Source: Ruminococcus sp. (GTDB lineage Bacteria; Bacillota; Clostridia; Oscillospirales; Ruminococcaceae). Taken from it: a stretch of 64,000 nucleotides of DNA. Below, in pieces: positions 12,326 through 49,145 of this stretch; the first letter of the stretch is position 1; the number at the start of each line of letters is the position of its first letter. Made by a program: the position numbers and the translations under genes. The DNA lies in NCBI RefSeq assembly GCF_017549005.1, contig NZ_JAFYYT010000046.1, positions 18,326-82,325 of the forward strand, read 5' to 3'. The notes below the pieces were generated by a model. That model had not been told where the DNA came from. It did no database searches and worked only from the letters and a program-made list of their open reading frames with translations.

Positions 12326-12432
12326 GATTTAGTGTAATGCAGGGCGAGTTGTCTCTGTACGCAAAAAAAGATAATCAGAGCTGTTGTTTGAACGGCTCTT
12401 GTATATGATCCGAAGAGAGGAGGACACTGAAT

Positions 12433-12567: not shown

Positions 12568-12574
12568 CGAGGCT

Positions 12575-12606: not shown

Positions 12607-12633
12607 GTTAGGACGCTGTATGCAGGTGCAAAT

Positions 12634-13280: not shown

Positions 13281-13292
13281 GAGGGATGAATA

Positions 13293-14438
13293 TTGAACGC
13301 ACTTTATGATATTATCGGTGTGCCTTTCGGCTATCTGATGAGACTTATTTACTCGTTATGCAATAACTATGCCGTGGCAATCATACTGTTTACGGTAGTT
13401 ACGAGAATACTGCTCTTCCCCGTCAACTATAAGACACAGAAGGGCGCTGCAAGAATGCAGCTTTTAAACCCAAAGCTTGAAAAGCTCAGAAAAAGCTTCG
13501 CAAACAATCCTCAGAGACTTCAGGAGGAACAACAGAAGCTTTATCAGCAGGAAGGCGTAAACCCTATGGGTTCATGTCTCCCCGCATTTATACAGATGTT
13601 CCTGCTTTTTGGCGTTATCGACGTTATCTACAAGCCGATAACCCATATCCTTAACATATCCAAGAACGTTATCGAAAGCGCTGTCGATATTGCAAAAGGT
13701 ATCACAGGCGATAAGAACCTCACAATGTCAAACCTCAGATGTGAGCTCATGACTATGGAAAATCTCAGGGACAACGGGGAAAAGTACGCTTCCCTGGGAG
13801 AGAATTTCTTATCAAAGGTAAGCGAATTCGGCGAGAAGTTCACACTTTTCGGTGCAAATCTCGGAAAAACCCCTACTTTCAGTCCGGAGAGCGGTTGGAC
13901 AAAGGAAGCGATAATACTCGTTATGATCCCTTTCCTTGCAGGTCTTTCACAGCTTCTCGTATCTGTTTACGGTCAGATACATCAGAAGAAAACAAATCCT
14001 GTTACACAGCCCGGCGGCGGATGCATGACAGTTATGATATATGTACTTCCGCTCCTTTCGATATGGTTTGCATTCCAGGTGCCCGCAGGTATCGGTTTCT
14101 ACTGGATATGGTCATCAGTATTTTCATTCATTATAACCTTTGCGCTTAACTGCTACTTTACTCCCGAGCGCGTTAAGGTGATAAATGAGCAGGAAAAAGA
14201 AAAAGCAAGAATTTATGCAGAAAAACATCCGAATAAGAAGACTTTCATGCAGAAGATGCTTGAACAGCAGGCTGCTCTCGAAGAACAGCAGAAGGGCAGT
14301 TCTTCTTCTGGCAAGTCAAGCGGCGTTTCACGTTCAGAACAGAACAAGGCTAACCGCGACAAGCTCAAGGAAGCAAGAAGACGTATGGCTGAAAAGTATG
14401 GAGATTCTTACGAAGATGATAATGATGAAGAGGACTGA
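13293..14438 (+). CDS. yidC: Membrane protein insertase YidC/OxaA
   Basis: A 381-residue insertase with the conserved NPKLEKLRKSF and NPMGSCLPAFIQMFLLFGV segments and five or so membrane helices. The region between helices (about 115-200) is longer than in short Firmicute homologues. The C-terminal tail is charged and rich in Ser, Lys and Asp, suited to ribosome contact. Start is TTG, with GAGGG 7 bases upstream; the nearby ATG at 13286 is out of frame. Confidence 0.95.
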   Translation: MNALYDIIGVPFGYLMRLIYSLCNNYAVAIILFTVVTRILLFPVNYKTQKGAARMQLLNPKLEKLRKSFANNPQRLQEEQQKLYQQEGVNPMGSCLPAFIQMFLLFGVIDVIYKPITHILNISKNVIESAVDIAKGITGDKNLTMSNLRCELMTMENLRDNGEKYASLGENFLSKVSEFGEKFTLFGANLGKTPTFSPESGWTKEAIILVMIPFLAGLSQLLVSVYGQIHQKKTNPVTQPGGGCMTVMIYVLPLLSIWFAFQVPAGIGFYWIWSSVFSFIITFALNCYFTPERVKVINEQEKEKARIYAEKHPNKKTFMQKMLEQQAALEEQQKGSSSSGKSSGVSRSEQNKANRDKLKEARRRMAEKYGDSYEDDNDEED

Positions 14439-14459
14439 GTCCTCAGGGAGGTATAAAGT

Positions 14460-15563
14460 ATGACAGAAATTTTCACAGCACGATCCGTTGAAGAGGCTAA
14501 GGAAATGGCCGCTGAGAAATTCGGAAAAAAGATCAGTGAGATCAGATTTGAAATTCTTGACGAAGGCAAAAAGGGTCTTTTCGGAATTGGTTCAAAAGAA
14601 GCAAAAGTCAAGGCAACTGTTGCAGACAGTGCTCCTGTACAGGAAACAGCTCCCAAGGCTGCTCCCGAAGCTCCTAAGACTACAACAGCTCCTGAAAAGA
14701 AGGCTGAGCCTGTAACAAAGACAGTTGCAGCTGAAAAGTCCGTTGTAACAACAGAAACAAAGGCTGCAGAGAAAGCATCTGAGCCTGTAAAGGCAGAAAA
14801 AACCGAGAAAAATGCTGCCGGCGAAGCTGAAAATGCTCCCGAGGCTCTTGATGAAGAGGCATATTCACTTGACAACTTCACTCTTATCGAGGACGAAGCT
14901 CTTATCAATCCTAAGGTAAAGCTCGCTATGGATTATATCACAAGCATACTCAGAGCTATGGACGTTGACGTTGAATTCAAGGTTTATCAGAACGAGACAG
15001 GCGCTGTTATCAATCTCGAAAGCGATAATAACGGTACTATCATCGGCAGACGCGGTGAGACTCTCGATTCTATCCAGTATCTCTGTTCTATCATTGCAAA
15101 TAAGGGCGATAAGGATTATTACAGGATCACTATCGACTGCCTCGGCTACAGGAACAAGAGAAAGGATACTCTTGAGCAGCTCGCTGCAAAGGTTGCAAAG
15201 TCCGTTCTCAGAACAGGCCGTTCACAGCCACTCGAGCCTATGAATCCTTATGAGAGAAGAGTTATCCACTCTGCTATCTCAAATATCGAGGGAGTTTCTT
15301 CACGTTCAGTCGGCGAAGAGCCATACAGAAAGATAATCATTTCTTCAAATAACCCGAGAAGAGGCGGCGGCAGACGCGATAACAGACGCGACGGCGGCAG
15401 AAGAAATGACAACAGAAGAAACGGCGGTCAGAGAAACCGCGACAGAGAGGTAAATATGGAGCGCAGAAGCGTTAACCTCTCAACAAGCTTTGAAAAAGAC
15501 TATAAGAGACCAAAGCCTGAGGACGAGATCCAGGGCGGTCTTTACGGAAAGATAGAGCTTTAA
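14460..15563 (+). CDS. jag: Jag/KhpB RNA-binding protein (SpoIIIJ-associated)
   Basis: A 367-residue Jag protein. The N-terminal Jag domain is at 1-50 (ARSVEEAKEMAAEKFGK...GLFGIGSKEAKVK). A low-complexity Ala/Pro/Glu/Lys/Thr linker covers about 58-130. KH (GTIIGRRGETLDSIQYL) and R3H (YERRVIHSAISN...SRSVGEEPYRKI) domains follow, and the C-terminus is an Arg/Gly/Asp/Asn-rich tail (RRGGGRRDNRRDGGRR). KhpB partners with KhpA in RNA binding and cell-wall control in other Firmicutes. The RGG-like tail is longer than usual for the family and should add nonspecific RNA affinity. Confidence 0.93.
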   Translation: MTEIFTARSVEEAKEMAAEKFGKKISEIRFEILDEGKKGLFGIGSKEAKVKATVADSAPVQETAPKAAPEAPKTTTAPEKKAEPVTKTVAAEKSVVTTETKAAEKASEPVKAEKTEKNAAGEAENAPEALDEEAYSLDNFTLIEDEALINPKVKLAMDYITSILRAMDVDVEFKVYQNETGAVINLESDNNGTIIGRRGETLDSIQYLCSIIANKGDKDYYRITIDCLGYRNKRKDTLEQLAAKVAKSVLRTGRSQPLEPMNPYERRVIHSAISNIEGVSSRSVGEEPYRKIIISSNNPRRGGGRRDNRRDGGRRNDNRRNGGQRNRDREVNMERRSVNLSTSFEKDYKRPKPEDEIQGGLYGKIEL

Positions 15564-15627
15564 TCGAATATCTGAAACAACGGCTTTAAATGTTATATAA
15601 AATAAAGGCTTATGGGTATTTATCGGG

Positions 15628-15740
15628 GAAAACCTTTCTGAGGAAAGGTTCTTCCCCGAACCCCTTTCCAAAGACTTTTAATCCAAAGTTTTAGGAGAGG
15701 AGTTTGAGGAGAAACCCTTTTTAAAAAGAGGTCTCCTCAA
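15628..15740. repeat. Structured intergenic element between jag and mnmE
   Basis: Two strong hairpins lie here. The first pairs CGGGGAA and ACCTTTC with GAAAGGTT and TTCCCCG (15628-15661). The second pairs TTGAGGAGA (15704-15712) with TCTCCTCAA (15732-15740), with a further AT-rich inner stem. Between them is a CCTTTCCAAAGACTTT stretch typical of dispersed intergenic repeats in this group of bacteria. No reading frame of note is present. It may end jag transcription, though the T-tracts are weak. Confidence 0.5.
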
Positions 15741-15800
15741 TAAATATACACAAAACTTATTTATATACATATACGCCGTTGTTTTTTTAGGAGTGGTTTA

Positions 15801-17162
15801 ATGTCAACAATAGCTGCGATATCGACTCCGAATGCTATAGGCGGAATCGCTGTTATACGTATCTCAGGTGAGGGTGCGATAGAAGTTGCGGAGAAGATAT
15901 TCTCACCTTTCGGCAGTAAAAAGGTCTCGGAAATGGAGGGCTATACCTGCGCTTACGGGATCGCTCATAACGGGAACGAGCGCCTTGACGACTGTATTCT
16001 CACTGTGTTCCGGGCTCCTCACAGCTACACTGGCGAGGATATTGCGGAGCTTTCATGTCACGGCGGACTTTACGTTACAAGAAAGGTCCTCAGGGCGGCT
16101 CTTGCAAACGGAGCAGTCAATGCGGAAGCTGGCGAGTTCACAAAAAGGGCGTATCTTAACGGAAAACTTGACCTTACACAGGCAGAAGCCGTTATGGATA
16201 TAATTTCCGCTAAGGGCGAGCGTGAGCTGAAAATGGCGGAAAGTCTACGCGAGGGTGCAGCTTTCAAAAAGGCTAAGAAATGCTCGGACAAGCTGCTGAA
16301 AATTCTCGGCGACCTTGCTGCCTGGGCGGATTATCCCGAGGAGGATATCCCCGAGGTCCGTCCCGAGGTGCTGTCCGAGGAACTGAAAGGCGTTCGTGAC
16401 GAGCTCAGGTCGCTTATCGCAAATTACGACAGCGGACGTATTCTTCGCGAGGGTGTGGCTACGGCGATAATCGGCCGCCCGAATGTGGGTAAGTCCACGC
16501 TGTTCAACTGTCTTAGCGGCTGTGAAAGAAGTATCGTTACGGAGATCGCAGGCACGACGAGAGATGTCATTGAGGAGTCGGTTCGTATCGGCGATATAAC
16601 TCTCAGGCTTTCTGATACGGCGGGTATCCATGAGACCGATGATGTTATCGAGGGTATCGGCGTGGAAATGGCTGAAAAAATGATATCAAAGTCGGAGCTC
16701 GTAATTGCAGTTTTTGACGGAAGTTGTCCGCTCACCGAGGACGATTTATATTTAATTAATAAAATTAATAAAGATAATACAGTCGCGGTCATCAATAAAA
16801 ATGATGTTGAGCAGCTGCTGGACACTTCCCTTCTTGAACAGAAAATACAACATATAGTATATCTTTCAGCTAAAGAAAACACAGGTGTTGATGAACTTTA
16901 CGATAAGATCCAGACCATTTTTAAACTTAATGAAGCTGATTTTGATACTGCAACAGCTGCAAATGAGCGACAGAAAAAGTGTATCGACAAGGCGCTTGAA
17001 GGTATTGAAAGTACTATTTTATCACTTGAAATCGGTGAAATGCTTGACGCTGTCAATATTCTCGTTGATGAGGCTGAGCAGTCGCTTCTCATGCTTACAG
17101 GCGAGAAAGTTACCGACGCTGTTGTTGATGAAGTTTTTTCACGTTTTTGTGTGGGAAAATAA
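15801..17162 (+). CDS. mnmE: tRNA modification GTPase MnmE
   Basis: A 453-residue MnmE with an N-terminal tetrahydrofolate-binding domain (IAAISTPNAIGGIAVIRISG), a central G domain (GRPNVGKSTLFNCL, DTAGIHETDD, NKND) and the C-terminal CxGK motif as FCVGK. With MnmG it forms cmnm5U34 in tRNA. AGGAG precedes the ATG. The sequence directly after the stop is a parS-like palindrome and mnmG follows 33 bases later. Confidence 0.97.
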   Translation: MSTIAAISTPNAIGGIAVIRISGEGAIEVAEKIFSPFGSKKVSEMEGYTCAYGIAHNGNERLDDCILTVFRAPHSYTGEDIAELSCHGGLYVTRKVLRAALANGAVNAEAGEFTKRAYLNGKLDLTQAEAVMDIISAKGERELKMAESLREGAAFKKAKKCSDKLLKILGDLAAWADYPEEDIPEVRPEVLSEELKGVRDELRSLIANYDSGRILREGVATAIIGRPNVGKSTLFNCLSGCERSIVTEIAGTTRDVIEESVRIGDITLRLSDTAGIHETDDVIEGIGVEMAEKMISKSELVIAVFDGSCPLTEDDLYLINKINKDNTVAVINKNDVEQLLDTSLLEQKIQHIVYLSAKENTGVDELYDKIQTIFKLNEADFDTATAANERQKKCIDKALEGIESTILSLEIGEMLDAVNILVDEAEQSLLMLTGEKVTDAVVDEVFSRFCVGK

Positions 17163-17178
17163 TGTTTCATGTGAAACA
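17163..17178. promoter_or_regulatory. parS-like site (one mismatch) between mnmE and mnmG
   Basis: TGTTTCATGTGAAACA differs from the near-universal parS TGTTTCACGTGAAACA at one base. It starts at the base after the mnmE stop codon. It is the exact reverse complement of the site at 20721-20736. ParB or the ParB-like Noc could bind it. Confidence 0.75.
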
Positions 17179-17195
17179 TTAAAGGAGGGATATTT

Positions 17196-19085
17196 TTGAA
17201 TTACGAAATGGGTGAATTTGATGTAGCGGTAGTCGGTGCAGGTCATGCAGGAGTGGAGGCGGCTCTTGCCGCCGCAAGACTCGGCTGTAAAACTGTCATG
17301 TTTACTATATCGCTGGATCAGATCGCTAATATGCCTTGCAACCCCTCAATCGGTGGAACTGCAAAGGGTCACCTGGTCCGTGAAATAGACGCTTTGGGCG
17401 GAGAAATGGGCAAAGCTGCCGATAAATGCTTCATTCAGAGCCGTATGCTAAACCGCGGAAAGGGTCCTGCAGTACACAGTCTGAGAGTTCAGGCGGACAG
17501 AGTTGAGTACCATAAGTACATGAAAAATGTCTGTGAAAAGCAGAAAAATCTGTATGTTAAGCAGGCGGAAATATCAGACGTACTTGTTGATAATAATAAA
17601 ATTACAGGTGTGCGGACAAAACTCGGAGCTGAGTATCGTGTGAAAGCAGTCATAATCGCAACGGGTACTTATCTCAAAGGTAAGATTCACATAGGCGAAG
17701 TTTCATATGAAAGCGGTCCTGATTCTGCGTTACCCAGTAATTTACTATCGAAAAGTCTTATTGAAAGCGGCGTTGAGCTCCGCAGATTCAAGACAGGAAC
17801 TCCGTGTCGTGTTAACAAGAGAAGTATTAATTTTGATATAATGGAAAGACAGGACGGTGACGAAAAAATTGTCCCCTTTTCATTTGAAACGGATCCTGAC
17901 AAGCTTGATAATAAAGTAAGCTGTTTTGTGACATATACCAACAGTAAAACCCATGAAGTCATACTTGCAAACCTTGACAGGTCACCATTATACTCGGGTA
18001 GAATAGAGGGAGTAGGTCCACGATACTGTCCGTCAATCGAGGACAAGATAGTGAGATTTTCAGACAAACCCCGACATCAGCTTTTTGTGGAGCCCATGGG
18101 AATGAGTACAGAAGAGTACTATTTACAGGGAATGTCATCATCACTGCCTGAGGACGTGCAGCTCGCGTTTCTTAGAACAATAGACGGACTTGAAGACGTA
18201 GAGATAATGAGACCTGCATACGCAATCGAGTATGACTGCTGCAACCCGAATCAGCTTCTTCCGACCCTTGAATTCAAAAACGTAGAGGGACTTTACGGGG
18301 CCGGTCAGTTCAACGGAAGCTCGGGATATGAAGAAGCAGCTGCTCAGGGAATAGTTGCGGGAATCAATGCTGCACTGAAAATAAAGGGTAAAGAGCCTAT
18401 GATACTTGACCGTGCGAGCTCTTATATCGGCACTTTGGTCGATGATCTTGTAACTAAGGGCTGTTCAGACCCCTACAGAATGATGACTTCACGAAGCGAG
18501 TACAGGTTGATTCTTCGTCAGGATAACGCAGATCAGAGACTTACGCCTATCGGCTACAAGCTCGGACTTATCTCTCAGGAGCGTTATGACGCGCTGCTTG
18601 AGAAGGAAAGGCTCACTGCAGAGGAGATCGAGAGAGTTTCGAAGCTAAATATTTCGCCGTCTGTGGAGCTTAATGAGTTCCTTGAAGCACATGGAACTTC
18701 CCCTCTTGCGACGGGCTGTAAAATGTCTGATCTTATCCGCCGTCCGCAGATCTACTACAATGATCTTAGCGAATTTGATGAGGAAAGACCTGAACTTCCG
18801 CCCGATGTTGCGGAACAGGTGGAACTTCAGATTAAATACGAGGGATACATTCAGAAACAGCTTCAGCAGATCGAGCAAATGCGTAAAATGGAGTCGAAAA
18901 AGCTCCCGAAGGACCTTGATTACAGCATGATATACGGTCTCAGGCTCGAAGCTGCGGAGAAACTGAACAAGATAAAGCCCTTGTCAATAGGTCAGGCGTC
19001 CAGAATTTCTGGTGTTTCGCCTGCCGACGTGTCAATGCTTGCTGTTTGGCTCATGCACGAGAAGGGAGAAAACAATGCTTCCTGA
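17196..19085 (+). CDS. mnmG: tRNA uridine-5-carboxymethylaminomethyl modification enzyme MnmG
   Basis: A 629-residue FAD enzyme (GidA). The dinucleotide motif [17 protein letters not shown] is at about 15-31, [25 protein letters not shown] follows, and the second half has the GASS-type [18 protein letters not shown] and [19 protein letters not shown] motifs. The TTG at 17196 is chosen because AGGAGG lies 7 bases before it, while the ATG at 17208 would be 19 bases away. Its end overlaps rsmG by 11 bases. Confidence 0.96.
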
Positions 19086-35989: not shown

Positions 35990-37744
35990 TTACTTCTTTT
36001 CCTCGGGGTTCTTTTCCTCAGCGGGCTTTTTTACGCCTGTAACGTCGGAAATATCAACCTTTTCGGTCTGCTCAGCCTTAACGAGTACATTATTGATATC
36101 GCCGACAAGGGAAATGATATCGTTTATGGACTTGTTGATAGTCTCTGAGCTCTCGTTTGTGATAGTTACGTTATCATCAAGAGCGCTGAACGCATTGATG
36201 GTAGTTTCAAGGATAGATGTGAGCTGTGAAACGCTGTCAGCGTCCATTGTGGAGTTATCGTTACAGAACGAAACGACATTCTCAAGGAGGTCCTTAACTA
36301 CAGCAGCTCTTTCGCTGGTAGCAGCTGTGGACTCGCCGATATTCTCCATATTCTCGGTGATATTTGAAACATTGCTCTTGAGCTTTTCGGAAAGAGCAAG
36401 AACTTCCTCGGTGATCTCGGCAAGCTGTTCATTCTGTCTGTTGAGGGCAGAGTGTCTTGCGATGAGGACTGATTTAGCGTGTACGATACAGTTATCGGGA
36501 GTATTGAGACCTCTGTAGATAGCCGTAGCCATATCACGGCAGGTATTGTATCCGCAGGCATGGCAGTCATAGCTGCGGTCCTCTTCTGTATGCATACCCA
36601 TTTTCTCGAAGATAGGCACAAGCTGTGCCACATTCGGAACAGGTGTGGGCATTGACGGCTTGTAGTTTCTGAGGAAGTCAGCAACACGGAGCTCATCGTC
36701 GAACTTCTTGAAGAGCTTGTCGTCGCCTCGTCCCATGATACCTGTTGACTTGCGGCGGCTCTTTGCCTCTGTTTCGATAGCTCTTGAAGTAGCCATTACA
36801 TCGAAAACAGTCTGCTTTGTACCCGAAGCGGGTCCGATGTTACATCCGAATTCACATGAGAGCACGTCGAATACCTTCGGGTGCTTGGATTCGGGCATTC
36901 TTCCGTACATATCTATTTCTCCGAAAACCTTGTGTACGCCCTCGGAATTTGTGATATTGACATCCGGATCCTGCATCCAGATATTGTCTCTCAGTCCGCC
37001 GGGACGTGAGTATATGGAGCCGAGCTGTCCCTGCATATCGTCGAATTTGTACTCAAAATTCTCGGAAGTGTCTATCGGGATGATGATATCGTTTCTCTCG
37101 AAGTATTCGAGAAGCTTCTTGATAGTAACGTTATACTTTACGAGACCCGTATCCTTTGCCTCATAAGCCTCGGCGATACATGGAGAAATAACAGCTATGG
37201 GGTTATTTCTGCGGAGATACTTCTCTATGTATATAGCGCTGCACGCAATAGGGCTGTGTATAGGCGAAAGGTTCTGGAGCAGCTTGGGCTGGTATGTTTC
37301 GATATACTTAACTATGGCAGGACACTGCTGTGTGATTATATTGCCGATCTTGTCCTGATCGATAGTTCTTGCGTGAGCCCATGTGCAGATATCAGCACCG
37401 AGGGATACGTCGAATATAGTACATCCCTGTTTCTTGAACCAGTCGAGAACGCCCTTCCACTTTGTGGGGAGAATGGTCTTGATAGCAGGAGAAGCCATAA
37501 TGATGATCTTTTCCTTGAGGAGGTCGGTGATACATTCGTCAGTATCGTCGATATAATCTCTTGCACCGTGGTTGCACTTCTTAACGCATTCGCCGCAGGC
37601 GATACACTTGGAAGGGTTTACCATAGTGATAAAGCGGCCGTCCTCCAGCTGCTTGGTCATATTGGCTTCGGGTGCGGGACATTCTCTTACACAAGCGTTA
37701 CATCCCACGCATTTTTCAGGTTTTACAATGATCAATTCACTCAT
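35990..37744 (-). CDS. [FeFe]-hydrogenase-like redox sensor with C-terminal coiled coil
   Basis: A 584-residue protein. Two ferredoxin-type 4Fe-4S motifs lie at 12-22 and 47-57. A hydrogenase H-domain follows with cluster ligands C141 (QQCPA), C189 (SPC), C297 and C301 (SCEFGC). A further FeS motif is CHACGYNTC near 400, and the end is a helical region of about 120 residues with a charged tail. The Cys before CP that relays protons in catalytic enzymes is Gln here, and GGG after the last ligands is lost, so a sensory role is more likely than hydrogen turnover. It is transcribed after a DivIVA-like gene, 43 bases apart. Confidence 0.85.
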   Translation of the reverse strand: MSELIIVKPEKCVGCNACVRECPAPEANMTKQLEDGRFITMVNPSKCIACGECVKKCNHGARDYIDDTDECITDLLKEKIIIMASPAIKTILPTKWKGVLDWFKKQGCTIFDVSLGADICTWAHARTIDQDKIGNIITQQCPAIVKYIETYQPKLLQNLSPIHSPIACSAIYIEKYLRRNNPIAVISPCIAEAYEAKDTGLVKYNVTIKKLLEYFERNDIIIPIDTSENFEYKFDDMQGQLGSIYSRPGGLRDNIWMQDPDVNITNSEGVHKVFGEIDMYGRMPESKHPKVFDVLSCEFGCNIGPASGTKQTVFDVMATSRAIETEAKSRRKSTGIMGRGDDKLFKKFDDELRVADFLRNYKPSMPTPVPNVAQLVPIFEKMGMHTEEDRSYDCHACGYNTCRDMATAIYRGLNTPDNCIVHAKSVLIARHSALNRQNEQLAEITEEVLALSEKLKSNVSNITENMENIGESTAATSERAAVVKDLLENVVSFCNDNSTMDADSVSQLTSILETTINAFSALDDNVTITNESSETINKSINDIISLVGDINNVLVKAEQTEKVDISDVTGVKKPAEEKNPEEKK

Positions 37745-37787
37745 AATTATAAAAACTCCTTATGGCATTTAAGAAACTTATTCTGCT

Positions 37788-38876
37788 TTATTTCTTTCCG
37801 ATAGAATTAGCCTTTGCTGCAAGAGCGGCAAGGTCTATCTTACCTTTCTTTTCGCCGCCTTCATTTTTTGCGTCGCTCTTTTTCTGTTCGCTGTCGTTTT
37901 CGTCTTTTTTCTCGTCGTCCCTGTCGTTTTCGTCCTTCTTCTCGTCGTCCTTCTTAGCGCCTATGGATTCAGCCATCTGCTTGAGCTTGTCGAGCTCTTC
38001 CTGCTGCTTGCGCTTTTCGTCGTCATTTTTCATTTTCTCAGAGAGCAGTGTAGGTCTCTCGGGGATCTCGGGCTCGAAGACCTCGGGCTGCTTGAATACA
38101 GGGACTCCGCCCTCCTTGATAGTAGCCTCCGTTTTGTTGAGGCACTCGTCTGCTTCGATAAGGCGGCTTATACCGTCTTTGCGGAAGCCCTCGAGGGAAT
38201 CTCTTACCAGACCCATATGTCTCTTCAGCGTATTGACGTTCTCGAGGATAGAAGCCCTGAGATTATTTGAAGCAACGTTCATTTCCTCAGCCTTGTTCTT
38301 TGCCTCGGCGATCTTTTCGGCAGCTTCTCTTTCAGCCTCGAATATTATCTGTTCTGCTTCCGTATTTGCTTCCGAAACTATACTTTCGGCGAGCTTCTTT
38401 GTTTTGAACTCTATTTCCGCAGCCTTTGATTTGGCTGTACCTTCCAACATGGAAGATGACTTCTGAGCTTCGATGAACACGTTGCTGAGAGCCATAGCCT
38501 CGTCCTGAGCCATAAGAGCAGCACATTTTGACTCGGCGTTCTTGAGCTTGTCATTGACCCCTGCAATTTCTTCCTTGAGCTTCTTTATCTCTTCCTGGAG
38601 ATTAGTGTTTTCGTCTTCTGTTGCTTTCAGCTTGAGGCTTAGAGTATTGTTCTGAACCTGGATCTGCGTGAGCTTTGCGCGTTCTTCCGAAAGAACCGAT
38701 TCCAGAGCTTTTTCGGGATCTGTTCCCTTTTTGTAAGCTTCCAGCTGAAGCTTGGTCACTCTCAGCTCGTTCCTGAGATCATGCACCTGTTCGTTGAGAT
38801 ATTCAAATCTTCTTATAACGGCTTCCTTGTCATAGCCGCCGAAAGTCACGGTTTTGATAAATCTTGGTTCAGCCAT
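37788..38876 (-). CDS. DivIVA-like coiled-coil protein
   Basis: A 362-residue protein with an N-terminal DivIVA-type motif (FIKTVTFGGYDKEAVIRRFEYLNEQV) and long coiled coil from about 25 to 210. It ends in a highly charged tail containing two copies of DDEKKDEND. DivIVA proteins bind curved membrane and recruit partners to poles and septa. The genome context, first gene of an operon with the hydrogenase-like sensor, suggests it positions that sensor; this is inference. It has its own sigma-A promoter at 38968-38996. Confidence 0.8.
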   Translation of the reverse strand: MAEPRFIKTVTFGGYDKEAVIRRFEYLNEQVHDLRNELRVTKLQLEAYKKGTDPEKALESVLSEERAKLTQIQVQNNTLSLKLKATEDENTNLQEEIKKLKEEIAGVNDKLKNAESKCAALMAQDEAMALSNVFIEAQKSSSMLEGTAKSKAAEIEFKTKKLAESIVSEANTEAEQIIFEAEREAAEKIAEAKNKAEEMNVASNNLRASILENVNTLKRHMGLVRDSLEGFRKDGISRLIEADECLNKTEATIKEGGVPVFKQPEVFEPEIPERPTLLSEKMKNDDEKRKQQEELDKLKQMAESIGAKKDDEKKDENDRDDEKKDENDSEQKKSDAKNEGGEKKGKIDLAALAAKANSIGKK

Positions 38877-39794: not shown

Positions 39795-40994
39795 TTACAT
39801 ATTCATAACATTGTTGATCATGTTTCCGCCGTTCATCTTAGCATTTCTCATAGCTGTATCGAGTTTAACAAGCAGTGAGTTTACGTTGAGGCAGTCGCCG
39901 GGGAGGTAGTGGTATACCGCACCTGAGCAAGGAAGCTGAACGTTGAGGTTCAGTACCTCGTAAGGACTGCTCATTACGCGCTGGATGTTCTGAGCGATGC
40001 CTGATGCCTGGCTCTCGGAGATATTCTTGTTGAATACGAAGCAGAATTCGTTACCTGTGATGTTGTAGATTTCTGCAACATCGCCGAACTCTTCCTTGAG
40101 CTTTTCAGCAACAGCAGCAAGGTACTCGTCACCGAAGTCATAACCGTAGGTATCGTTGATACTTCTGAAGTTATCCATATCGAATACTGCGATCTGGAAT
40201 CTTCCTGATTCGAGTCTTTCGCTGATATCGTTATCGAGAGCGTAACGGTTCTTCATACCTGTAAGAACGTTTGTTACAGCGAGGTCGCTTGCCTTCTGAC
40301 GTGTATTCTTGAGCTTAGCGTCAACCTCGGCAAGACGCAACTCACGCTCTTCGAGTTCTGCTCTTGCCTTCTTGGCTCTGCGTGCGAAGAGCCAGATAGC
40401 GAGCTCGGAGAGGATAGCGATGAGCGCCATAAGTCCCATAAGGATATAAGCTCTCATAGCGTTTCTTCTGAGGAGCTTCTGAGTTTCTGCATTAACGATG
40501 CTTATAGTAGCTGTAAGCATCTGTGCAGCCGTTATTTGCAGAGGGTAAAGGTCCTGTTTAAGTGTTTCAGTCATTGTTGCTTCGTCGCCGCTTTCGAGCT
40601 GGTTGGTACCGAGGGACTCAAGTCTTGTTCTGAAAGTAGCGATCATAGACTTAGCATAGTTATATCTGGTCATGACCGACTCAGGCAGGTCAAGGCTTTC
40701 AAACAGTTTCTCGTTTGCTTCGATATTTGCGTAGATACGCTCTGTATCGGCAACTATTTCAAGGGGGTTATCATAAAGGTTGGCAGCAAGACCAACAGAG
40801 TTTGTACTTACCTTCTGTAGCTCACCGTTGATACTGTTTATAGCACGGTTAGCTGTTGAAGTCATGTTGTTAAGATCCATATTGTTGCTGTAGATGTTCC
40901 AAACGAGGATAGTATCCAGAACATAGATTATCGCAACGAGGATCGCAGCAAATACATATCCGCTCGAGGCGCCTTTCTTCTTATTCTTTGCCAT
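39795..40994 (-). CDS. Membrane protein with degenerate GGDEF domain
   Basis: A 399-residue protein with a membrane segment at 12-33, an extracytosolic helical domain (about 34-175), a second membrane segment at 180-203, a coiled linker and a GGDEF fold from about 230. The fold is clear (LTGMKNRYALDNDI, AVFDMDNFRSINDTYGYDFGDEYL), but the GG[D/E]EF signature is TGNEF. Loss of the glycines argues against diguanylate cyclase activity; it may bind nucleotide or c-di-GMP. It lies 15 bases after a sugar-binding lipoprotein gene in one operon, so that lipoprotein may be its ligand sensor. Confidence 0.85.
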   Translation of the reverse strand: MAKNKKKGASSGYVFAAILVAIIYVLDTILVWNIYSNNMDLNNMTSTANRAINSINGELQKVSTNSVGLAANLYDNPLEIVADTERIYANIEANEKLFESLDLPESVMTRYNYAKSMIATFRTRLESLGTNQLESGDEATMTETLKQDLYPLQITAAQMLTATISIVNAETQKLLRRNAMRAYILMGLMALIAILSELAIWLFARRAKKARAELEERELRLAEVDAKLKNTRQKASDLAVTNVLTGMKNRYALDNDISERLESGRFQIAVFDMDNFRSINDTYGYDFGDEYLAAVAEKLKEEFGDVAEIYNITGNEFCFVFNKNISESQASGIAQNIQRVMSSPYEVLNLNVQLPCSGAVYHYLPGDCLNVNSLLVKLDTAMRNAKMNGGNMINNVMNM

Positions 40995-41009: not shown

Positions 41010-42374
41010 TTATGAATTGTTTCCTGCAGACGAACTTGCCGACGCCGGATCAAGCATGAGCTTGATGAAGTCATCGTTCATGTTGTCGGCCTTAACAAAT
41101 GAAACGCCTGTATTCAGGTGATTGGTCAGCTGCTCGCCCGTTATGGCTGCTGTAGCAAACTTAACGCCAACATATCCCATAACATAAGGATTCTGTACAA
41201 CAGTTCCGTAGAGGACGCCGTTCTTGATGTTACTGATGATCTCGTCATCGGAGTTGAAGCCTACAGCAAATACCTTGCCTGAAAGGCCGAGCTCATTGAT
41301 AGCGTCACAGATACCGAGTGTTGAATTGGTGTTTGTGCCGAAAAGGACAGAGAAACCGTTTCCGTCGGTTCCGAGAAGCTTCATAGCCTGTTCCTTTGCT
41401 TCCTTACGCTTTGAGCATGGCTCGGACTGTACGAAGCTCATCATGATATCCTGACGGATACGCTCATCGGCAGCGTCCTTTTCCTTCTGCTTTGCGAGAA
41501 GCTCAAGCTCAGCAGGTGTGAGTTCTTCTGTGTTCTGCTCTTCGGCTGCAGCTGCGCCGTCAGCACCGTATGCAGCAGCGTCTCCGCCTGCGGCTGCACC
41601 TTCTGCATCGCCGAAAGCAGCACCTTCTGCACCTGAACCGTCAGGAGCTCCGCCCCAGTCGCCTTCACCGCCGGGAGCTCCGCCGCCCATTGCAGCACCT
41701 GCGCCGCCCATGATGATAGCCATCATGTTGAGTGCGTCAAATTCAACGCCTCTTGTCTTACCGATGGATCTCTTGAGAGTATCGGTAAATCCGAGGACAC
41801 GCATATCAGATGTGGAAGCTGTGCTTCCGATGATACCGATCTTCTTGATATCGGCTACGTCCTTGCCTTTTTCTCTCCAGCCCTTTACAACGTTTCTTGC
41901 AGCAGCTACGCCGCCGTCAAAGTCTGACGAATTTATCAGTGAAAGTGTAAGAGGATTGTTGGAATCAGGCGATATAACGTTAGAGTTGATAGCGATTACC
42001 TTGATACCCTTGTCAACAGCCTGCTGAAGAACATCATTGAGGTCTGTCTGACTGTTTGGTGCGATAACGATCGCTCTGACGCCGGCATTCATTGCCTGTT
42101 TGATATAGTCTACCTGTGAAGCGTAATCATTATCGCCCTCGGCAACGTTGTAAATGATCTCATAGCCGAGTTCCTTTCCTGCGTCCATAGCACCCAGCTT
42201 TACGTCATCCCAGAATGCGATCGGCTGTTTGGTGATAACTGCGATCTTTCCGCCGCCCGGTCTTCCGCCCTGCCGGCCTCCCTGTGGTCCACAACCGCCG
42301 CTCAGAAGCATTGCAGCTGACAGCGTACAAGCAGCGACGGTTCTGAAAACGCCATTTTTCTTGTTTCTGTTCAT
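41010..42374 (-). CDS. Sugar-type substrate-binding lipoprotein with low-complexity insertion
   Basis: A 454-residue RbsB-like periplasmic-binding-protein fold. The signal peptide ends in a lipobox-like LLSGGC with Cys28. Family motifs are IAVITKQPIAFWDDVKLGAMDAGKELG, AGVRAIVIAPNSQTDL and SVLFGTNTNSTLGICDAI. Residues about 221-310 are an insertion rich in Gly, Ala, Asp and Glu, followed by a charged helix, absent from ordinary members. No ABC permease or ATPase genes are nearby; instead the degenerate GGDEF membrane gene follows directly. This points to sensing, not transport. Confidence 0.87.
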   Translation of the reverse strand: MNRNKKNGVFRTVAACTLSAAMLLSGGCGPQGGRQGGRPGGGKIAVITKQPIAFWDDVKLGAMDAGKELGYEIIYNVAEGDNDYASQVDYIKQAMNAGVRAIVIAPNSQTDLNDVLQQAVDKGIKVIAINSNVISPDSNNPLTLSLINSSDFDGGVAAARNVVKGWREKGKDVADIKKIGIIGSTASTSDMRVLGFTDTLKRSIGKTRGVEFDALNMMAIIMGGAGAAMGGGAPGGEGDWGGAPDGSGAEGAAFGDAEGAAAGGDAAAYGADGAAAAEEQNTEELTPAELELLAKQKEKDAADERIRQDIMMSFVQSEPCSKRKEAKEQAMKLLGTDGNGFSVLFGTNTNSTLGICDAINELGLSGKVFAVGFNSDDEIISNIKNGVLYGTVVQNPYVMGYVGVKFATAAITGEQLTNHLNTGVSFVKADNMNDDFIKLMLDPASASSSAGNNS

Positions 42375-42797: not shown

Positions 42798-42826
42798 TTG
42801 ACATCAATATGGAAAAGTGTTATACT
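42798..42826 (+). promoter_or_regulatory. Promoter of the TerY-P-like signalling operon
   Basis: TTGACA (42798-42803), 17 bases and TATACT (42821-42826), 72 bases before the first gene. No other promoter as good is seen until 48473, so it may drive five genes. Confidence 0.8.
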
Positions 42827-42898
42827 AATCGTGATAACAATATAAATACGCAAATATTTTAATTGCGCTGCTATATTCTTATGTCAGGAGGAGAGACC

Positions 42899-43942
42899 AT
42901 GCAATGCGAAAAATGCAACGCACCACTTGACCCGAAGCTGTCTGCCTGCCCCAACTGCGGTGCCCCTGTTCCGCAGAATATCGAGGGATTTGAGAATACA
43001 ATGGAGTTTCAGCATGAGCTTCGTGCGATCGTTGTAAATGACGGAACACGCGCTGTAGCCAATCAGGACAGATTTATAGGTCTGCTCAGCGATCATATAC
43101 CGGATTACGATAAGGAGCGCCGGCTTCTTATTAATATGTACAAAATGGGTATCCTCAAGATACTTCTTGAAGACAAAAACCATGAAATATCCATAATGAA
43201 AGCCAAAAGCTTCATGCTCGGCGACCTTTTCCTCTCGGAAAGCGCTTCGGAATTTGTAGTTGCCTGCTATACCTACCTTCTCGGCTGGCCCTACGAATCG
43301 CATCTGAAGGTCCTTCCCGAGGACGAGAACGACGCGGACAGGAAGGAAGAAAACGCCAAGAAGAGACCTGTGGATATCAACGAGATGGTGTTCATGCCGC
43401 GTAACGCTCTGAGATACAGACTCAGCGGAAATATCGTCATTCCCGACGGATATACCAAGCTCGAAGCTTTCTGCTTCGATAAGTTTGGTTCGCTGAGAAC
43501 TATCAAGCTGCCCTCTACCCTCCTTGCTATCGGAGAATATGCCTTCTCCTCGTGTAAGAGACTGAGAGGACTTGAGCTCCCCGAAGGACTGAGGATAATC
43601 AAGCAGGGCGCATTCAGTCAGTGTTCAAACCTTGTGGTAGTTAAGATACCGGACGGCGTTCTTGAGATCGAGGACAGTACATTCTCATTCTGTACAAGCC
43701 TCGAAGTCATCGAGATACCGCCGAGCGTCAGCAGTATAGGCGCGGAGGCGTTCTCGGGCTGTGATAAGCTCAGAAAGCTCTTCCTCCCCGAAAGCATCAA
43801 GTTCATCGACGCGAACGCTTTCTCATACTGCCCCAATCTTGTAATCTACTGCATTGAAAATTCATACGTTCATAAATACTGTTTAGCCACTGGAATAAGG
43901 TTCATCCTCGTGACCTCGGCTGAAGAATATGAGCTTGACTAA
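42899..43942 (+). CDS. Zinc-ribbon and BspA-type leucine-rich repeat protein
   Basis: A 347-residue protein. The N-terminus is a zinc ribbon with Cys at 3, 6, 18 and 21 (CEKC and CPNCG). A helical region covers about 45-150. Four to five LRR_5 repeats follow (LPSTLLAIGEYAFSSCKRLRGLELPEG and similar), and the end is CIENSYVHKYCLATGI. No signal peptide is present, so unlike surface BspA proteins it should be cytosolic. AGGAGGAGA before the ATG decides the start. It leads the operon with the kinase 20 bases downstream and may be a target or scaffold for it. Confidence 0.8.
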   Translation: MQCEKCNAPLDPKLSACPNCGAPVPQNIEGFENTMEFQHELRAIVVNDGTRAVANQDRFIGLLSDHIPDYDKERRLLINMYKMGILKILLEDKNHEISIMKAKSFMLGDLFLSESASEFVVACYTYLLGWPYESHLKVLPEDENDADRKEENAKKRPVDINEMVFMPRNALRYRLSGNIVIPDGYTKLEAFCFDKFGSLRTIKLPSTLLAIGEYAFSSCKRLRGLELPEGLRIIKQGAFSQCSNLVVVKIPDGVLEIEDSTFSFCTSLEVIEIPPSVSSIGAEAFSGCDKLRKLFLPESIKFIDANAFSYCPNLVIYCIENSYVHKYCLATGIRFILVTSAEEYELD

Positions 43943-43962
43943 GAAAGAAAGGATGAGATCAT

Positions 43963-45306
43963 ATGATAGAGCTTGAAATAGGTCAGGAGGTCGAGATGGA
44001 ATTTGGCGGCAAAGCCAAGGTACTCAGCGTCATTGGCAGCGGTGGTCAGGGTATCGTTTACCTCGTTCGTTTCAACGGTCAGAAATGGGCGCTGAAATGG
44101 TACGACATCAATAAGATGAGCAAGCCTGCCGCATTCCGCAAGAATCTCCAGAACAATATAAACGACGGCCCCCCGAGCAATAAGTTTCTGTGGCCGAAAT
44201 ACCTTACAAAAGAAGCGGAGGACGGTACCTTCGGATATATCATGGAGCTCAAGCCCGAGGGCTTCGACTCCTTCGTTGATATACTGAATACCTATAAGCT
44301 TGAGATTGATCCGCTCACGGGACGCGGTGTAAAACGTCCCGTCAAGTTCAACACTCTCAGCGCTATGGTGACCTGCGTCATCAATATCGTAAACGCTTTC
44401 CGACAGCTCCACCGTGCAGGTAAGAGCTATCAGGATCTTAACGACGGAGGCTTCTTCATCAATGTGAATACAGGAGCTGTCCTCGTCTGCGACTGTGATA
44501 ATATCGCACCTGACGGAAGCAACTTCGGTATCGGCGGTAAACCCGGATATATGGCTCCCGAAGTCGTAAGAGGAATCGCCAAGCCGAACGTACAGACAGA
44601 TAAGTATTCTCTTGCGGTCGTACTCTTCAAGCTCCTCTTCAGAGGAGACCCGATGGAGGGCGAAAAGGTCGTAAGGGACGTATGCCTTACAGAATCGTCA
44701 GAGCTAAAGCACTACGGTCAGAACGCAGTATTCGTATATGACCCCAACGACGATTCAAACCGCCCCGTAAGAGGTATCCATGACAACATCATCAAATTCT
44801 GGAGGATCTACCCCGATTACATAAAGGACGCTTTCATACGTTCCTTTACAACGGGCGTTACCGATCCTACAAAGCGTATCATCGAGAACGAATGGCAAAA
44901 GCTGTTCATACGCCTCAGAGCAGAAATAATCCAGTGCGGCTGCGGAAGAACGAATTTCAGCTCGATGTTCATCCAGCATAACGAAAAGACGTTCAAGTGT
45001 CCGAAATGCGGAATGGAATTTGTAACGATAGGTTTCAGCAACCGCGAATACCGCACGCCCCTCTATCTCGGATGTAAATTCTACACCTGCGAGATAGTTC
45101 CCGAATCCGACGACTTCACGTCTGTTGCAGGCGAGCTTGTTGAGAATAAAGTCAAGCAGGGCGTCCTCGGAATCAAGAATTGCTCCGACAGACAGTGGAA
45201 GGCAAAGATGCCTGACGGAGTTTTCTACGATATCGCTCCCGGTAAGGGCTTCCCCGTATGGCAGGGGCTCGAGATCGATTTCGGCGAAGTTAAAGCACAG
45301 ATATAA
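43963..45306 (+). CDS. TerY-P-type protein kinase with C-terminal zinc ribbon
   Basis: A 447-residue kinase-fold protein. The glycine loop is GSGGQG (25-30), the ATP-binding Lys is K45 (ALKWY), the catalytic Asp is D158 in YQDLNDGG, and the metal motif is DCD (177-179) in place of DFG. The residue five after D158, usually the metal-binding Asn, is Gly163. A zinc ribbon follows (CGCGRTNF...CPKCGMEF, about 323-353) and then a beta-rich C-terminal domain. Kinase, vWA and PP2C genes in a row are the TerY-P triad described by comparative genomics. Activity is uncertain because of the changed catalytic residues. Confidence 0.85.
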   Translation: MIELEIGQEVEMEFGGKAKVLSVIGSGGQGIVYLVRFNGQKWALKWYDINKMSKPAAFRKNLQNNINDGPPSNKFLWPKYLTKEAEDGTFGYIMELKPEGFDSFVDILNTYKLEIDPLTGRGVKRPVKFNTLSAMVTCVINIVNAFRQLHRAGKSYQDLNDGGFFINVNTGAVLVCDCDNIAPDGSNFGIGGKPGYMAPEVVRGIAKPNVQTDKYSLAVVLFKLLFRGDPMEGEKVVRDVCLTESSELKHYGQNAVFVYDPNDDSNRPVRGIHDNIIKFWRIYPDYIKDAFIRSFTTGVTDPTKRIIENEWQKLFIRLRAEIIQCGCGRTNFSSMFIQHNEKTFKCPKCGMEFVTIGFSNREYRTPLYLGCKFYTCEIVPESDDFTSVAGELVENKVKQGVLGIKNCSDRQWKAKMPDGVFYDIAPGKGFPVWQGLEIDFGEVKAQI

Positions 45307-45350
45307 TCTGCTGAGCCAGAGCAGTAATACTGAAAGGATGTATGTAAATT

Positions 45351-46226
45351 ATGAGCAATGAACGTTTTACAGAACCCGAAGTAAATGAGAACCAGAGCGT
45401 TACTCCTTCGGATGAATTGAATAACAATGTATCTGTATCTTCAGCTCCTGAAACAGACGACAGCATTCTCGATTTTGACGACGATCCCCTCAGCGCTACA
45501 AGCGTTTCCAAAAAGAGCCTTGTAGTATTCTTCCTGATAGATACTTCGGGAAGTATGAAAGGAAAGAAGATGGGCGAGCTCAATACCGTTATGGAAGAGC
45601 TCATCCCCGAGATACGCAGAGTCGGCGAAGCTGATACAGATGTAAAAGTCGCTGTTCTTACCTTCTCTACAGAGGTAAGATGGATGTACTCAAATCCTAT
45701 CCCGATAGAGGATTTCGAGTGGGCAAGGCTCCGTGCGAGCGGCGTTACCAGCATGGGCGCTGCATTCAAGGAGCTCAACCACAGAATGTCAAGAAACAGC
45801 TTCCTCAATTCGCCTTCACTCTCATTCGCACCTGTTATATTCCTTATGACAGACGGATATCCTTCCGATGATTACAAGGAAGGCCTCAGAGAGCTCCAGA
45901 CGAACAGCTGGTACAAGTTCGGCCTCAAGGCTGCACTGGGTATCGGTCAGGAAGCAAACGATAATATCCTTGCAGAGTTCACAGGCTCTAAGGATACAGT
46001 CGTTCACGCATACTCAGGCGGTCAGCTTGCTCAGATGATCAAGATCATCGCTGTAACATCAGCTCAGATAGGCAGTAAGAGTATGACGCTCTCTGATGAT
46101 ACAGGACAGGAGCTCGGTGAAGAAAATGTATTCGCCGCTAAGCAGAAGCTTCTCGGTCAGCAGATCCAGGAGCTCGTAAATACCAACGGCGAAGGCGACG
46201 ATGTACCGTTCGATACAGGCTGGTAA
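45351..46226 (+). CDS. TerY-like von Willebrand A domain protein
   Basis: A 291-residue protein. Residues 1-55 are acidic and probably disordered. A vWA domain follows with a complete MIDAS: DTSGSM at 64-69, Thr in SGVTSMGAAF and Asp in MTDGYPSDD. The TerY class of vWA proteins works with the neighbouring kinase and phosphatase in metal- or stress-linked phospho-signalling. The N-terminal acidic Ser/Thr-rich tail is a reasonable phosphorylation target. It lies 44 bases after the kinase and 40 before the phosphatase. Confidence 0.9.
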   Translation: MSNERFTEPEVNENQSVTPSDELNNNVSVSSAPETDDSILDFDDDPLSATSVSKKSLVVFFLIDTSGSMKGKKMGELNTVMEELIPEIRRVGEADTDVKVAVLTFSTEVRWMYSNPIPIEDFEWARLRASGVTSMGAAFKELNHRMSRNSFLNSPSLSFAPVIFLMTDGYPSDDYKEGLRELQTNSWYKFGLKAALGIGQEANDNILAEFTGSKDTVVHAYSGGQLAQMIKIIAVTSAQIGSKSMTLSDDTGQELGEENVFAAKQKLLGQQIQELVNTNGEGDDVPFDTGW

Positions 46227-46266
46227 TAAACTATCAGAAATTATTCCTGAGGAGGACTGAAATAAT

Positions 46267-47181
46267 ATGTTCAACGGCTTCAGCCATTCGGTAATGGGCG
46301 CAAGTCATGAAAAAACGAACCTGGTTTGTCAGGACAGTTCTGCTTTCAAGGCAGAAGATCATTATGCTATCGCTGTCGTTGCCGACGGACACGGAAGCAA
46401 AAAGCACTTCAGAAGTCACCTTGGCTCAAAATTCGCTGTCGAAGCCGCTATAGAGGCTGTAGACAGATATTATGAGGACCGCGAGGCACTGGAAGCTAAT
46501 CTTCCCGATAACTACAAATTAATACTGAAGAATATAGAGAAGCAGATCATTTCAAACTGGAATGTGAAGATCGAAAAGCACCTTGCGGAAAATCCTGTTA
46601 CCGAAGAGGAAAAGAGTAAGTTCACAAAGGAGGAATTCGAGGCTATACTCCCCGAATCCTACTACGGCTCTACTCTCGTTGTCGCTGTTGCAGGCGAGGG
46701 CTATACCTTCGGCGTGCAGATAGGTGACGGAAGCCTTGTAGCTATCTTTGAGGACGGCAAGGCGGTAATGCCAATGGAATATAACGAGGCTGCACCTGCA
46801 AACGTAACAGCTTCCGTGTGCAATTCAAATGCGGCGGGAATGTTCAGCAGCTTCTACGCTCCCAACAAGAGGCTCATAGCGCTCTATGGTTCTACCGACG
46901 GACTTTATACTTCATTCGGAAGCGAGCATGATTTCCTCGATTATCATACCATAATCACAAGTCAGCTCGTAAATCTTGAGACATTCAAGACAGTCATAAA
47001 AAACAATCTCAGCAAGAGGTCGCATTTCGGTACAGAGGACGATATATCCCTCGCTTGTATCTATGACGACACTCTTCTCAAAGAAAAGCTGGATCTTATC
47101 AATCAGCGCGTAGCTGAAAACAAGAAGTCGGCTGCCGAAAGAAAGGCGGCTGCTCTCAGCAAGCAGGTCGAAGTCGAATAA
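46267..47181 (+). CDS. PP2C-type protein phosphatase
   Basis: A 304-residue PPM phosphatase. The metal-binding motifs appear in order: CQDSSAF, VADGHGSKKHFRSHLG, IGDGSLVAIF, STDGLYTSF and EDDISLACI. It is the likely partner that reverses phosphorylation by the upstream kinase. The C-terminus is a basic helix rich in Ala and Lys (about 275-304). GAGGAGG lies upstream of the ATG. Third member of the TerY-P-like triad. Confidence 0.92.
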   Translation: MFNGFSHSVMGASHEKTNLVCQDSSAFKAEDHYAIAVVADGHGSKKHFRSHLGSKFAVEAAIEAVDRYYEDREALEANLPDNYKLILKNIEKQIISNWNVKIEKHLAENPVTEEEKSKFTKEEFEAILPESYYGSTLVVAVAGEGYTFGVQIGDGSLVAIFEDGKAVMPMEYNEAAPANVTASVCNSNAAGMFSSFYAPNKRLIALYGSTDGLYTSFGSEHDFLDYHTIITSQLVNLETFKTVIKNNLSKRSHFGTEDDISLACIYDDTLLKEKLDLINQRVAENKKSAAERKAAALSKQVEVE

Positions 47182-47244
47182 CTTCGATAATCAGGCTAAA
47201 ACGCATTAACTGCGTTCAATATTTAAAGAAAAGTGGTGTTTTTT

Positions 47245-48399
47245 ATGGAAATAGGCTCATTATATAATACAGCCAAAAACTTTGCAGAAACTTTAAAGCA
47301 GAAGAGGCCGGAGCTGACACAGTATGACGCAAATCTCTGCCTTATCATCGCAGATACGGGGGATATCTTTTCAGGCGTATCGACTGTATCCATAAACGAA
47401 GGCGCAGTTGAGGACGTTTCAGCTGAAAAGATTGCAGTAATGTCCATCGCTACTGCAAAGCACGTTATCGCAAAGCAGCTTATCGTCATCTCACTTGACG
47501 ATTTCATCTATATCAGACCCGATGACGAGGCATTAGGCATTCTCGTTAATTCAAGCGTCGACAACAGCAGCTGTGAGGTCGTTCTCTCACCCGAAGAGGC
47601 AGTTACTGCCGCAAGTCTTGTTCCCGCTTCAGAGGCACCTGATTTCCTCAGCGGCTACGACGAGGCTGAGCTCGGCGCACCTGCCGAATTTGCAAACAGC
47701 ATAGACGTTGATTCCACTAACCCGTTCAATAATGAGACAAGCAGTCAGGACGGCGTTCCGAATTCTCTCTATGAGCATCCCGAGGAGGCTCAGCAGCAGG
47801 GAGCAAGCGGATTTCCGAACATCAACCCGAACCAGCAGCACGGCTACCCTCAGGGTTATCCACAGCAGGGCGGCTTCCCGCAGCAGGGCTATCCGCAGCA
47901 GGGCTTCCCACAGCAGGGTTATCCGCAGCAGGGCTTCCCACAGCAGGGCTATCCGCAGCAGGGTTACCCGCAGCAGGGCTATCCTCAGCAGGGCTTCCCG
48001 CAGCAGGGTTATCCTCAGCAGAGCGGTTTCCCACAGCAGGGCTATCCGCAGCAGGGTTACCCGCAGCAGGGCTATCCACAGCAGGGCGGTTTCCCGCAGG
48101 GCATGAATGCTGCTCCTTACAGACAGGGATATACAGGCCATTCAGTTCATGGCGGTGCAGCACCTATCAGAAATAGCGTGTATCAGCAGTCCCAGAGCGT
48201 AAGCGTTACTCTCACCTCAAAGCCGGGCGGAGAAAGCGCTTTCAAGAAGAGACTTAGCAACTTCCTTGACACAGACGATGATGATATGTCAACAGGCGCA
48301 GATTCATCCGCTGACGCAGGTATGTCTAAAGAAGATATGCTCAAGCAGGCAAAGGACAGAAAGAAGATCGCAAAGGCAAATCTCAACTTAAAGAAATAA
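47245..48399 (+). CDS. Operon protein with Pro-Gln-Gly-Tyr repeats
   Basis: A 384-residue protein. Residues 1-130 form a compact domain whose outline ([17 protein letters not shown], then [11 protein letters not shown], a beta strand, and VVLSPEEA) recalls the cytidine-deaminase fold without the zinc residues; this is tentative. Residues about 197-287 are tandem [10 protein letters not shown] repeats. The C-terminus has a basic helix ([15 protein letters not shown]). The ATG at 47245 is taken over the earlier GTG. It ends the TerY-P-like operon, 63 bases after the phosphatase. The repeats suggest a multivalent scaffold or condensate-forming segment. Confidence 0.75.
47833..48105 (+). repeat. 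Coding tandem repeats for [10 protein letters not shown]
   Basis: About seventeen near-identical 15-18 base units of the type CCGCAGCAGGGCTAT lie in the coding frame of the preceding gene. Third positions vary (CCG/CCA/CCT, GGC/GGT), which shows selection on protein sequence instead of a very recent expansion. Confidence 0.9.
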
Positions 48400-48605: not shown

Positions 48606-49145
48606 ATGAATTATTTGCTCAATATTGATGAAGCGGTTGACCGAAAGTTTCTTGTAACAAAGGCAATGCGCGGTCAGGCTGAGGTCGGCACAATTATCCA
48701 TGTAATGGACGCCGAGCAGCAGGGACAGGCTGTGATAGTATATTACCGAGTTACAAGATATAATGAAAAATTCCACGATTATCAGGACTATACAGCAAAG
48801 TTTGAAAATCTTTCTGCGTTCTGTAAGTGGTGTCAGCCTGACAACTTCATCGCTCGAAATTATGAATGCTTCAGTATAAGAGATATACAGCACTACATAA
48901 AGGTCAAGAACAGGAACTTTGCTTCATTCTGCCTTCCTATCATTCTGATAGCTGCAATTATCATATGGGTAGTATTGGCTCTGCTTATGTTCAAGGATAA
49001 TCTTATTATCGGAATCATAATCGGTGCTGTCCTTACTCTTCTTGTGCTTATCGGAGCTGTTTATCTGCTCAAGGTCCAGAAGAAGAAGGAAAAAATGCGC
49101 CTTTACCGAAAGGTAAGTGCAGGCTGGGGCGTAGTTTTTGAATAA
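48606..49145 (+). CDS. Hypothetical membrane protein next to the TerY-P operon
   Basis: A 179-residue protein not recognised. Residues 1-103 form a soluble domain (MNYLLNIDEAVDRKFLVTKAMRG...), followed by two membrane helices at about 106-128 and 133-154 and a short basic tail. The ATG at 48606 follows AAGGAAAGGG; the frame upstream to 48540 lacks a site. It has its own promoter, so it may be regulated apart from the kinase operon although adjacent and co-oriented. Confidence 0.65.
   Translation: MNYLLNIDEAVDRKFLVTKAMRGQAEVGTIIHVMDAEQQGQAVIVYYRVTRYNEKFHDYQDYTAKFENLSAFCKWCQPDNFIARNYECFSIRDIQHYIKVKNRNFASFCLPIILIAAIIIWVVLALLMFKDNLIIGIIIGAVLTLLVLIGAVYLLKVQKKKEKMRLYRKVSAGWGVVFE

Follow-up and report, generated by a model that had tools for sequence, protein, structure and literature searches.

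TerY-P triads have been described in loci for stress response and defence, and we know of no phosphorylation targets established for them. In the excerpted text of eLife 2024 RP94800, such a triad comprises a TerY-like vWA protein, a PP2C phosphatase and a Ser/Thr kinase with a C-terminal zinc ribbon, and joins CoCoNuT restriction systems; excerpts of PMC7699616 and PMC10889362 report protection by TerY-P against T7-like phages and against Autographiviridae in Pseudomonas, respectively. Here we analyse a 64,000-nucleotide stretch of a Ruminococcus sp. genome (the window; contig NZ_JAFYYT010000046.1), in which an operon at 42798-48399 places a TerY-P triad between a leucine-rich repeat (LRR)/zinc-ribbon gene and a gene for a deaminase-fold protein. 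Our tentative reading is that this chromosomal operon is inherited vertically and encodes a TerY-P phospho-switch, with a nucleotide-binding protein of the cytidine deaminase fold, a pseudo-enzyme in this lineage, as its putative dedicated client. Behind this reading stand the triad, the conserved gene order, the fold, the lost zinc ligands, purifying selection and the repeated GGDEF neighbours.

The window shares with the triads of RP94800, as excerpted, all three proteins, their domain make-up and the adjacency of their genes; it differs in being chromosomal and common in one genus and in its LRR/zinc-ribbon and deaminase-fold flanks. With the stand-alone anti-phage TerY-P systems of Gao et al. 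2020, as the excerpts from all three papers present them, it shares kinase, phosphatase and vWA protein, whereas an OB-fold is reported to replace the zinc ribbon in those kinases (RP94800), and the same excerpts name no deaminase-fold partner. No Ter, restriction or nuclease genes were seen beside the window operon. In the literature searched, with most subscription papers outside its scope, we found no description of a deaminase-fold protein with TerY-P, and the excerpted text of PMC7159879 does not mention TerY.

The middle three genes form a TerY-P triad

Five open reading frames follow one another on the + strand, in the places and order given by the preliminary description, with intergenic gaps of 20, 44, 40 and 63 nucleotides. 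The second encodes a Ser/Thr kinase whose C-terminal part holds a zinc ribbon and another conserved stretch (43963-45306; Pfam Pkinase, 40.3 bits, cut-off 31.7), the third a TerY-like vWA protein with the metal ion-dependent adhesion site (MIDAS) residues DTSGS..T..D (45351-46226; VWA, 42.1 bits, cut-off 23.8) and the fourth a PP2C-type phosphatase with metal-binding motifs (46267-47181; PP2C_2, 116 bits, cut-off 24). Across an 86-row kinase alignment, neither the lysine motif nor QDLND varies (86/86), and the P-loop, DxDN and the second Cys pair of the zinc ribbon are kept; C325, C327, C346 and C349 are invariant in nine aligned kinases and 12 aligned C-terminal parts. The vWA alignment conserves the DxSxS, T and D residues of the MIDAS, and the PP2C alignment retains the metal motifs, with variants. 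The window vWA protein is 41% identical to that of a distant triad (L176). With zinc-ribbon kinase, MIDAS vWA protein and PP2C in the same gene set, the middle three genes are, by sequence, a TerY-P triad as RP94800 words it, which agrees with the assignment first made.

Relatives occur in other settings too. The window's genome carries a second TerY-P-like kinase elsewhere (L033, 9405-10721) and, at a distant place, a separate vWA-PP2C pair (L035, 7364-9226). One kinase relative lies on a Prevotella plasmid in an annotated triad of TerY-C protein, vWA and PP2C; another plasmid-borne relative adjoins PP2C, CARF and AAA proteins.

Gene order is conserved across the genus

A kinase search with one genome per species returned 201 relatives, and the best 80 of these 201 were analysed as loci, so the set is skewed to close kin: nearly all are labelled Ruminococcus, Oscillospiraceae or Clostridia. 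Two further loci, L028 and L029, are copies of L106 and L108; they still stand in the 86-row protein alignments and were left out of the 80-locus counts and of the zinc, repeat, linear-motif and GGDEF/zinc-pair counts below. LRR protein, kinase, vWA, PP2C and deaminase-fold genes follow in this order in 75/80 loci, and in the five incomplete ones (L040, L054, L074, L076 and L084) the contig ends first. The preliminary description would have fallen had the outer two genes not stayed with the triad in other species; they do. The same order appears in genomes from other genera of the family (L030, L031, L190 and L191), and in further such genomes (L192 and L193) the last gene is convergent with its GGDEF partners. 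Between L028-L031 and the window, kinases are 71-81% identical and heads of the last protein only 26-41%, so the conserved order does not merely reflect recent ancestry.

In a survey of 125 genus genomes, 85/91 strong deaminase-fold matches have an operon-type kinase no more than 12 kb away, and in 83/125 genomes the kinase and the last gene are linked. We take the latter as the prevalence figure rather than 92/125, because that count of operon-type kinases (E up to 7e-164) also takes in sister-operon kinases. The operon sits at a recurrent chromosomal place amid genes that look household by eye, and chromosomal, vertical inheritance belongs to our best reading, graded jointly with the phospho-switch.

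A single strong promoter precedes all five genes, as the preliminary description held. Position 42798, where that description begins the operon, opens a sigma-A-type site, TTGACA-17-TATACT (42798-42826, + strand, 11/12 matches), that is conserved upstream of relatives: in a sample of 43 of the 80 loci plus the window, 41/44 have a site with at least 11/12 matches in the 200 bases that precede the LRR gene. Scanning the window alone gave 11 sites versus 9.6 in shuffles, no excess, and it is therefore conservation that carries the promoter claim.

The first gene (42899-43942, + strand) encodes a 347-residue protein with a zinc ribbon, a helical domain (about residues 36-139) and a BspA-type LRR region (LRR_5, E 3e-35). 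Its ribbon, CEKC..CPNC, scores under the Pfam cut-off; the first Cys pair is found in 82/86 aligned rows, the remaining four being gapped there, and most orthologs retain both ribbon and helical domain. The invariant Cys of a 42-row alignment carry no weight here, its rows having been selected with the ribbon pattern. At L031, the open reading frame taken has no ribbon. The structure model of residues 1-170 has a mean pLDDT (predicted local distance difference test) of 87, and no fold stood out when the helical domain was compared with solved structures. In a different family, a protein encoded next to a TerY-P triad aligns with this domain (hhalign probability 94), which looks like a TerY-P-associated adaptor domain. 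Beside the distant triad of L176, two adjoining proteins, 60% identical, both have it (3134-4815).

The last gene encodes a deaminase-fold protein

The fifth gene (47245-48399, + strand) encodes a protein that fold, ortholog motifs and Pfam resolve into a pseudo-deaminase head (about residues 1-125), an NPF motif, a Pro-Gln-Gly-Tyr/Phe repeat and a basic C-terminal tail. Its head belongs to the cytidine deaminase-like superfamily, matching the Blasticidin-S deaminase/cytidine deaminase fold (PDB 2z3g, 3mpz) over 119-120 residues. It shares with these enzymes the fold and, in some orthologs, the zinc motif; it differs in an identity of 12-19% to the top 33 deaminase structure matches, in the missing zinc ligands of the window copy and in a long tail with linear motifs. 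The zinc motif (H/C)xE..PCxxC is not in the window copy, which reads SAE..PDDEA and has lost all three ligands. Among 76 orthologs, which omit L061 and L071 with gapped motif columns, the motif is intact in 11 and lost in 65. PF00383 gives no match to the window copy; four of eight chosen orthologs exceed its cut-off and the other four fall below. Rough ratios of non-synonymous to synonymous substitution (dN/dS) indicate purifying selection.

A 15-bp tandem repeat found by TRF (47872-48087, 14 copies, + strand) encodes the PQQG(Y/F) stretch. Repeats of like composition, 37-153 residues long and with units that turn over, occur in 65/69 full-length orthologs; this set omits L036 (a masked stretch) and contig-cut orthologs and was selected by tail, which biases tail counts upward. 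A looser count including cut genes gives 72/78, with two of the six lacking it (L061 and L094) contig-cut, and we prefer 65/69. The short motifs flanking the repeat are conserved, and NPF is present in 67/69. The repeat is best described as a length-variable flexible linker. Contigs stop inside it in L043, L044, L096, L105 and L113, so that draft assemblies under-report the full last gene. A weak repeat match at L024 (G010:C44:5474-5692) lies in a frame with 14 TAG codons and is either low complexity or a recoded element.

GGDEF genes recur as neighbours

GGDEF genes recur in three settings. A gene divergent from the window operon (39795-40994, - strand; Pfam and alignment) encodes a GGDEF protein with the degenerate motif TGNEF, shared by 57/65 aligned rows, and has a relative upstream in 57/80 loci. 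In 14/80 loci, R. albus included, an extra membrane GGDEF gene lies between PP2C and the last gene; the GGDEF motif is kept in all 14, and PF00990 matches all five in-operon examples scanned (from L029, L031, L109 and L115) and one each from L192 and L193. At L031, seven tandem GGDEF-family membrane proteins occupy this position (10978-17736), most with altered motifs. Finally, short deaminase-fold paralogs with HAE..PCxxC adjoin a GGDEF gene in 9/9 fetched loci, one of them in the window's own genome (L183, G000:C43, 548-2847), where the zinc-intact paralog (HAE..PCNNC) is followed by a dCache-GGDEF protein (GSDEF). Outside these nine short paralogs, L194 holds a long last-gene relative with a Gln-rich end and no zinc motif. 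Taken from gene context, the recurrent GGDEF neighbourhood suggests a nucleotide signal.

The operon is uncoupled from TerD

TerD has no match in the window's genome, whose assembly is 93.8% complete. The preliminary description had placed no TerC, TerD or TerZ genes nearby, which holds for the neighbours looked at and, for TerD, genome-wide; TerC and TerZ were not searched separately. Within the genus TerD occurs in 44/125 genomes, and of the 83 genomes in which kinase and deaminase-fold gene are linked, 49 are without it. From these absences, the operon is a Ter-type switch uncoupled from TerD.

Each of the five sister kinase and PP2C operons of the genus (L207-L210 and L214) includes TerD along with phosphomannose isomerase, and AIM24 is seen in four of them, TerD and AIM24 being assigned by Pfam in L207, L208 and L214 and the rest by eye. 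Their kinases are 49-63% and their PP2C proteins 57-62% identical to those of the window, but no LRR, vWA or deaminase-fold gene lies within three genes. RNA repair genes of the Hen1 and PNKP-ligase types run divergently from two of them, L208 (4892-13849) and L209; they are labelled by Pfam in the former and by eye in the latter.

Chromosomal surroundings

Downstream, at 48606-49145 (+ strand), lies a conserved companion gene for a 179-residue protein with hydrophobic C-terminal stretches, which, judged by eye, probably form two membrane helices. Relatives lie downstream in 61/80 loci, often on the opposite strand, and also adjoin the paralogous triads L205 and L206. Upstream, a sugar-binding-type protein (Peripla_BP_4; 41010-42374, - strand) is divergent in the window; relatives occur in 60/80 loci and are not always divergent. 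Further upstream (35990-38876) are a DivIVA-like coiled-coil gene and an iron-hydrogenase-like ferredoxin gene, both labelled by eye.

Proposed mechanism and alternatives

Under the phospho-switch reading, envelope sensors, namely the binding protein and the membrane GGDEF proteins, would make or sense a nucleotide signal, which the deaminase-fold head would bind, catalysis having been lost in most lineages. The kinase would phosphorylate and PP2C dephosphorylate the disordered part or tail of the deaminase-fold protein, and perhaps the LRR protein, while the MIDAS of the vWA protein may dock metal-bound acidic linear motifs such as VDxxNPF. The phosphorylated complex would then alter a stress or nucleic-acid-related process. 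Ligand, substrate and function in this account are inferred. Recurrent chromosomal place, genus prevalence and promoter all speak for a household role.

Several observations count against this proposal. The operon is uncommon outside the genus: 11 of 80 family genomes have a kinase match, six of them at 63% identity or above, and a search of 291 class genomes for the head found, besides the window's own genome, six matches, all of plain cytidine deaminase size (126-137 residues). Gene order may persist through shared regulation alone. The dN/dS values are rough, as dS is near saturation, and the divergent GGDEF gene evolves fast (dN/dS 0.23); its TGNEF departs from the GG(D/E)EF motif of an active diguanylate cyclase. 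No GGDEF gene lies within the operon in 66/80 loci, a GGDEF-like motif is recovered in only 2/7 of the L031 tandem set by the pattern used, and in-operon GGDEF genes and intact zinc sites give only 1 to 3 independent pairs, too few to demonstrate linkage.

A more far-reaching version is possible, though we think it improbable: a nucleotide messenger made by the membrane GGDEF enzymes would be read or edited by the deaminase-fold protein, catalytic in some species and a nucleotide-sensing pseudo-enzyme in others, with its state set by the TerY-P switch. Such a coupling of a Ser/Thr phospho-switch to nucleotide second messengers would be a new pathway core to Ruminococcus.

Ranking below the phospho-switch reading, and unlikely, is anti-phage defence, in which the triad would sense infection and the deaminase-fold protein act as effector or decoy. 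Protection by TerY-P elsewhere makes this possible, and the association with CoCoNuT restriction systems and the plasmid-borne kinase relatives described above point the same way. Against it stand the linked pair in 83/125 genus genomes at a recurrent place with household-like neighbours, the strong conserved promoter and the loss of the zinc site in most orthologs; moreover, PADLOC matches the kinase domain only (PD-T4-6, mad6 and one other) and gives no hit to the vWA, phosphatase or deaminase-fold genes.

We consider it less probable again that the Pro-Gln-Gly-Tyr/Phe repeat would drive a phosphorylation-controlled scaffold or condensate, as the preliminary description proposed from composition. 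Prevalence of the repeat and the conserved short motifs around it fit that idea, yet in four of the 69 full-length orthologs (L030, L081, L097 and L112) the repeat is missing while head and basic tail are retained, and the conserved mass is the folded deaminase domain. That account is supported in its triad, its lack of TerD, its promoter and its outer genes, and not in treating the repeat as central to the last protein; nor had it noted that this protein has a deaminase fold, that GGDEF genes and a small hydrophobic protein accompany the operon, or that sister operons carrying TerD exist in the genus.

Next in order, and doubtful, is an active nucleoside or nucleotide deaminase pathway under phosphorylation control, in which the window copy would be a decayed or regulatory subunit working with a zinc-intact paralog. 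Cytidine deaminases form multimers whose subunits share active sites, which favours such a pairing, as do the 11 zinc-intact orthologs and the HAE..PCNNC paralog in the same genome. That paralog, however, sits elsewhere with its own GGDEF partner, and NxE, the ribose-contacting motif of cytidine deaminases, was not seen in the alignments.

Least probable is a cell-envelope or division regulator that tunes the DivIVA-like neighbour and envelope proteins by phosphorylation: a DivIVA-like gene (label by eye) lies close to the operon in 61/80 loci, R. albus included, and the small hydrophobic protein downstream is conserved, but in the window the DivIVA-like neighbour is on the opposite strand and may share the chromosomal place only.

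In a triad fixed with two constant partners, the deaminase-fold and LRR/zinc-ribbon proteins become candidate clients of TerY-P phosphorylation. The zinc site has been lost repeatedly while selection continued, and intact relatives persist beside GGDEF genes. The family thereby offers a natural example of an enzyme that may have become a sensor, and might tie protein phosphorylation to nucleotide messengers in gut bacteria that are major degraders of fibre.
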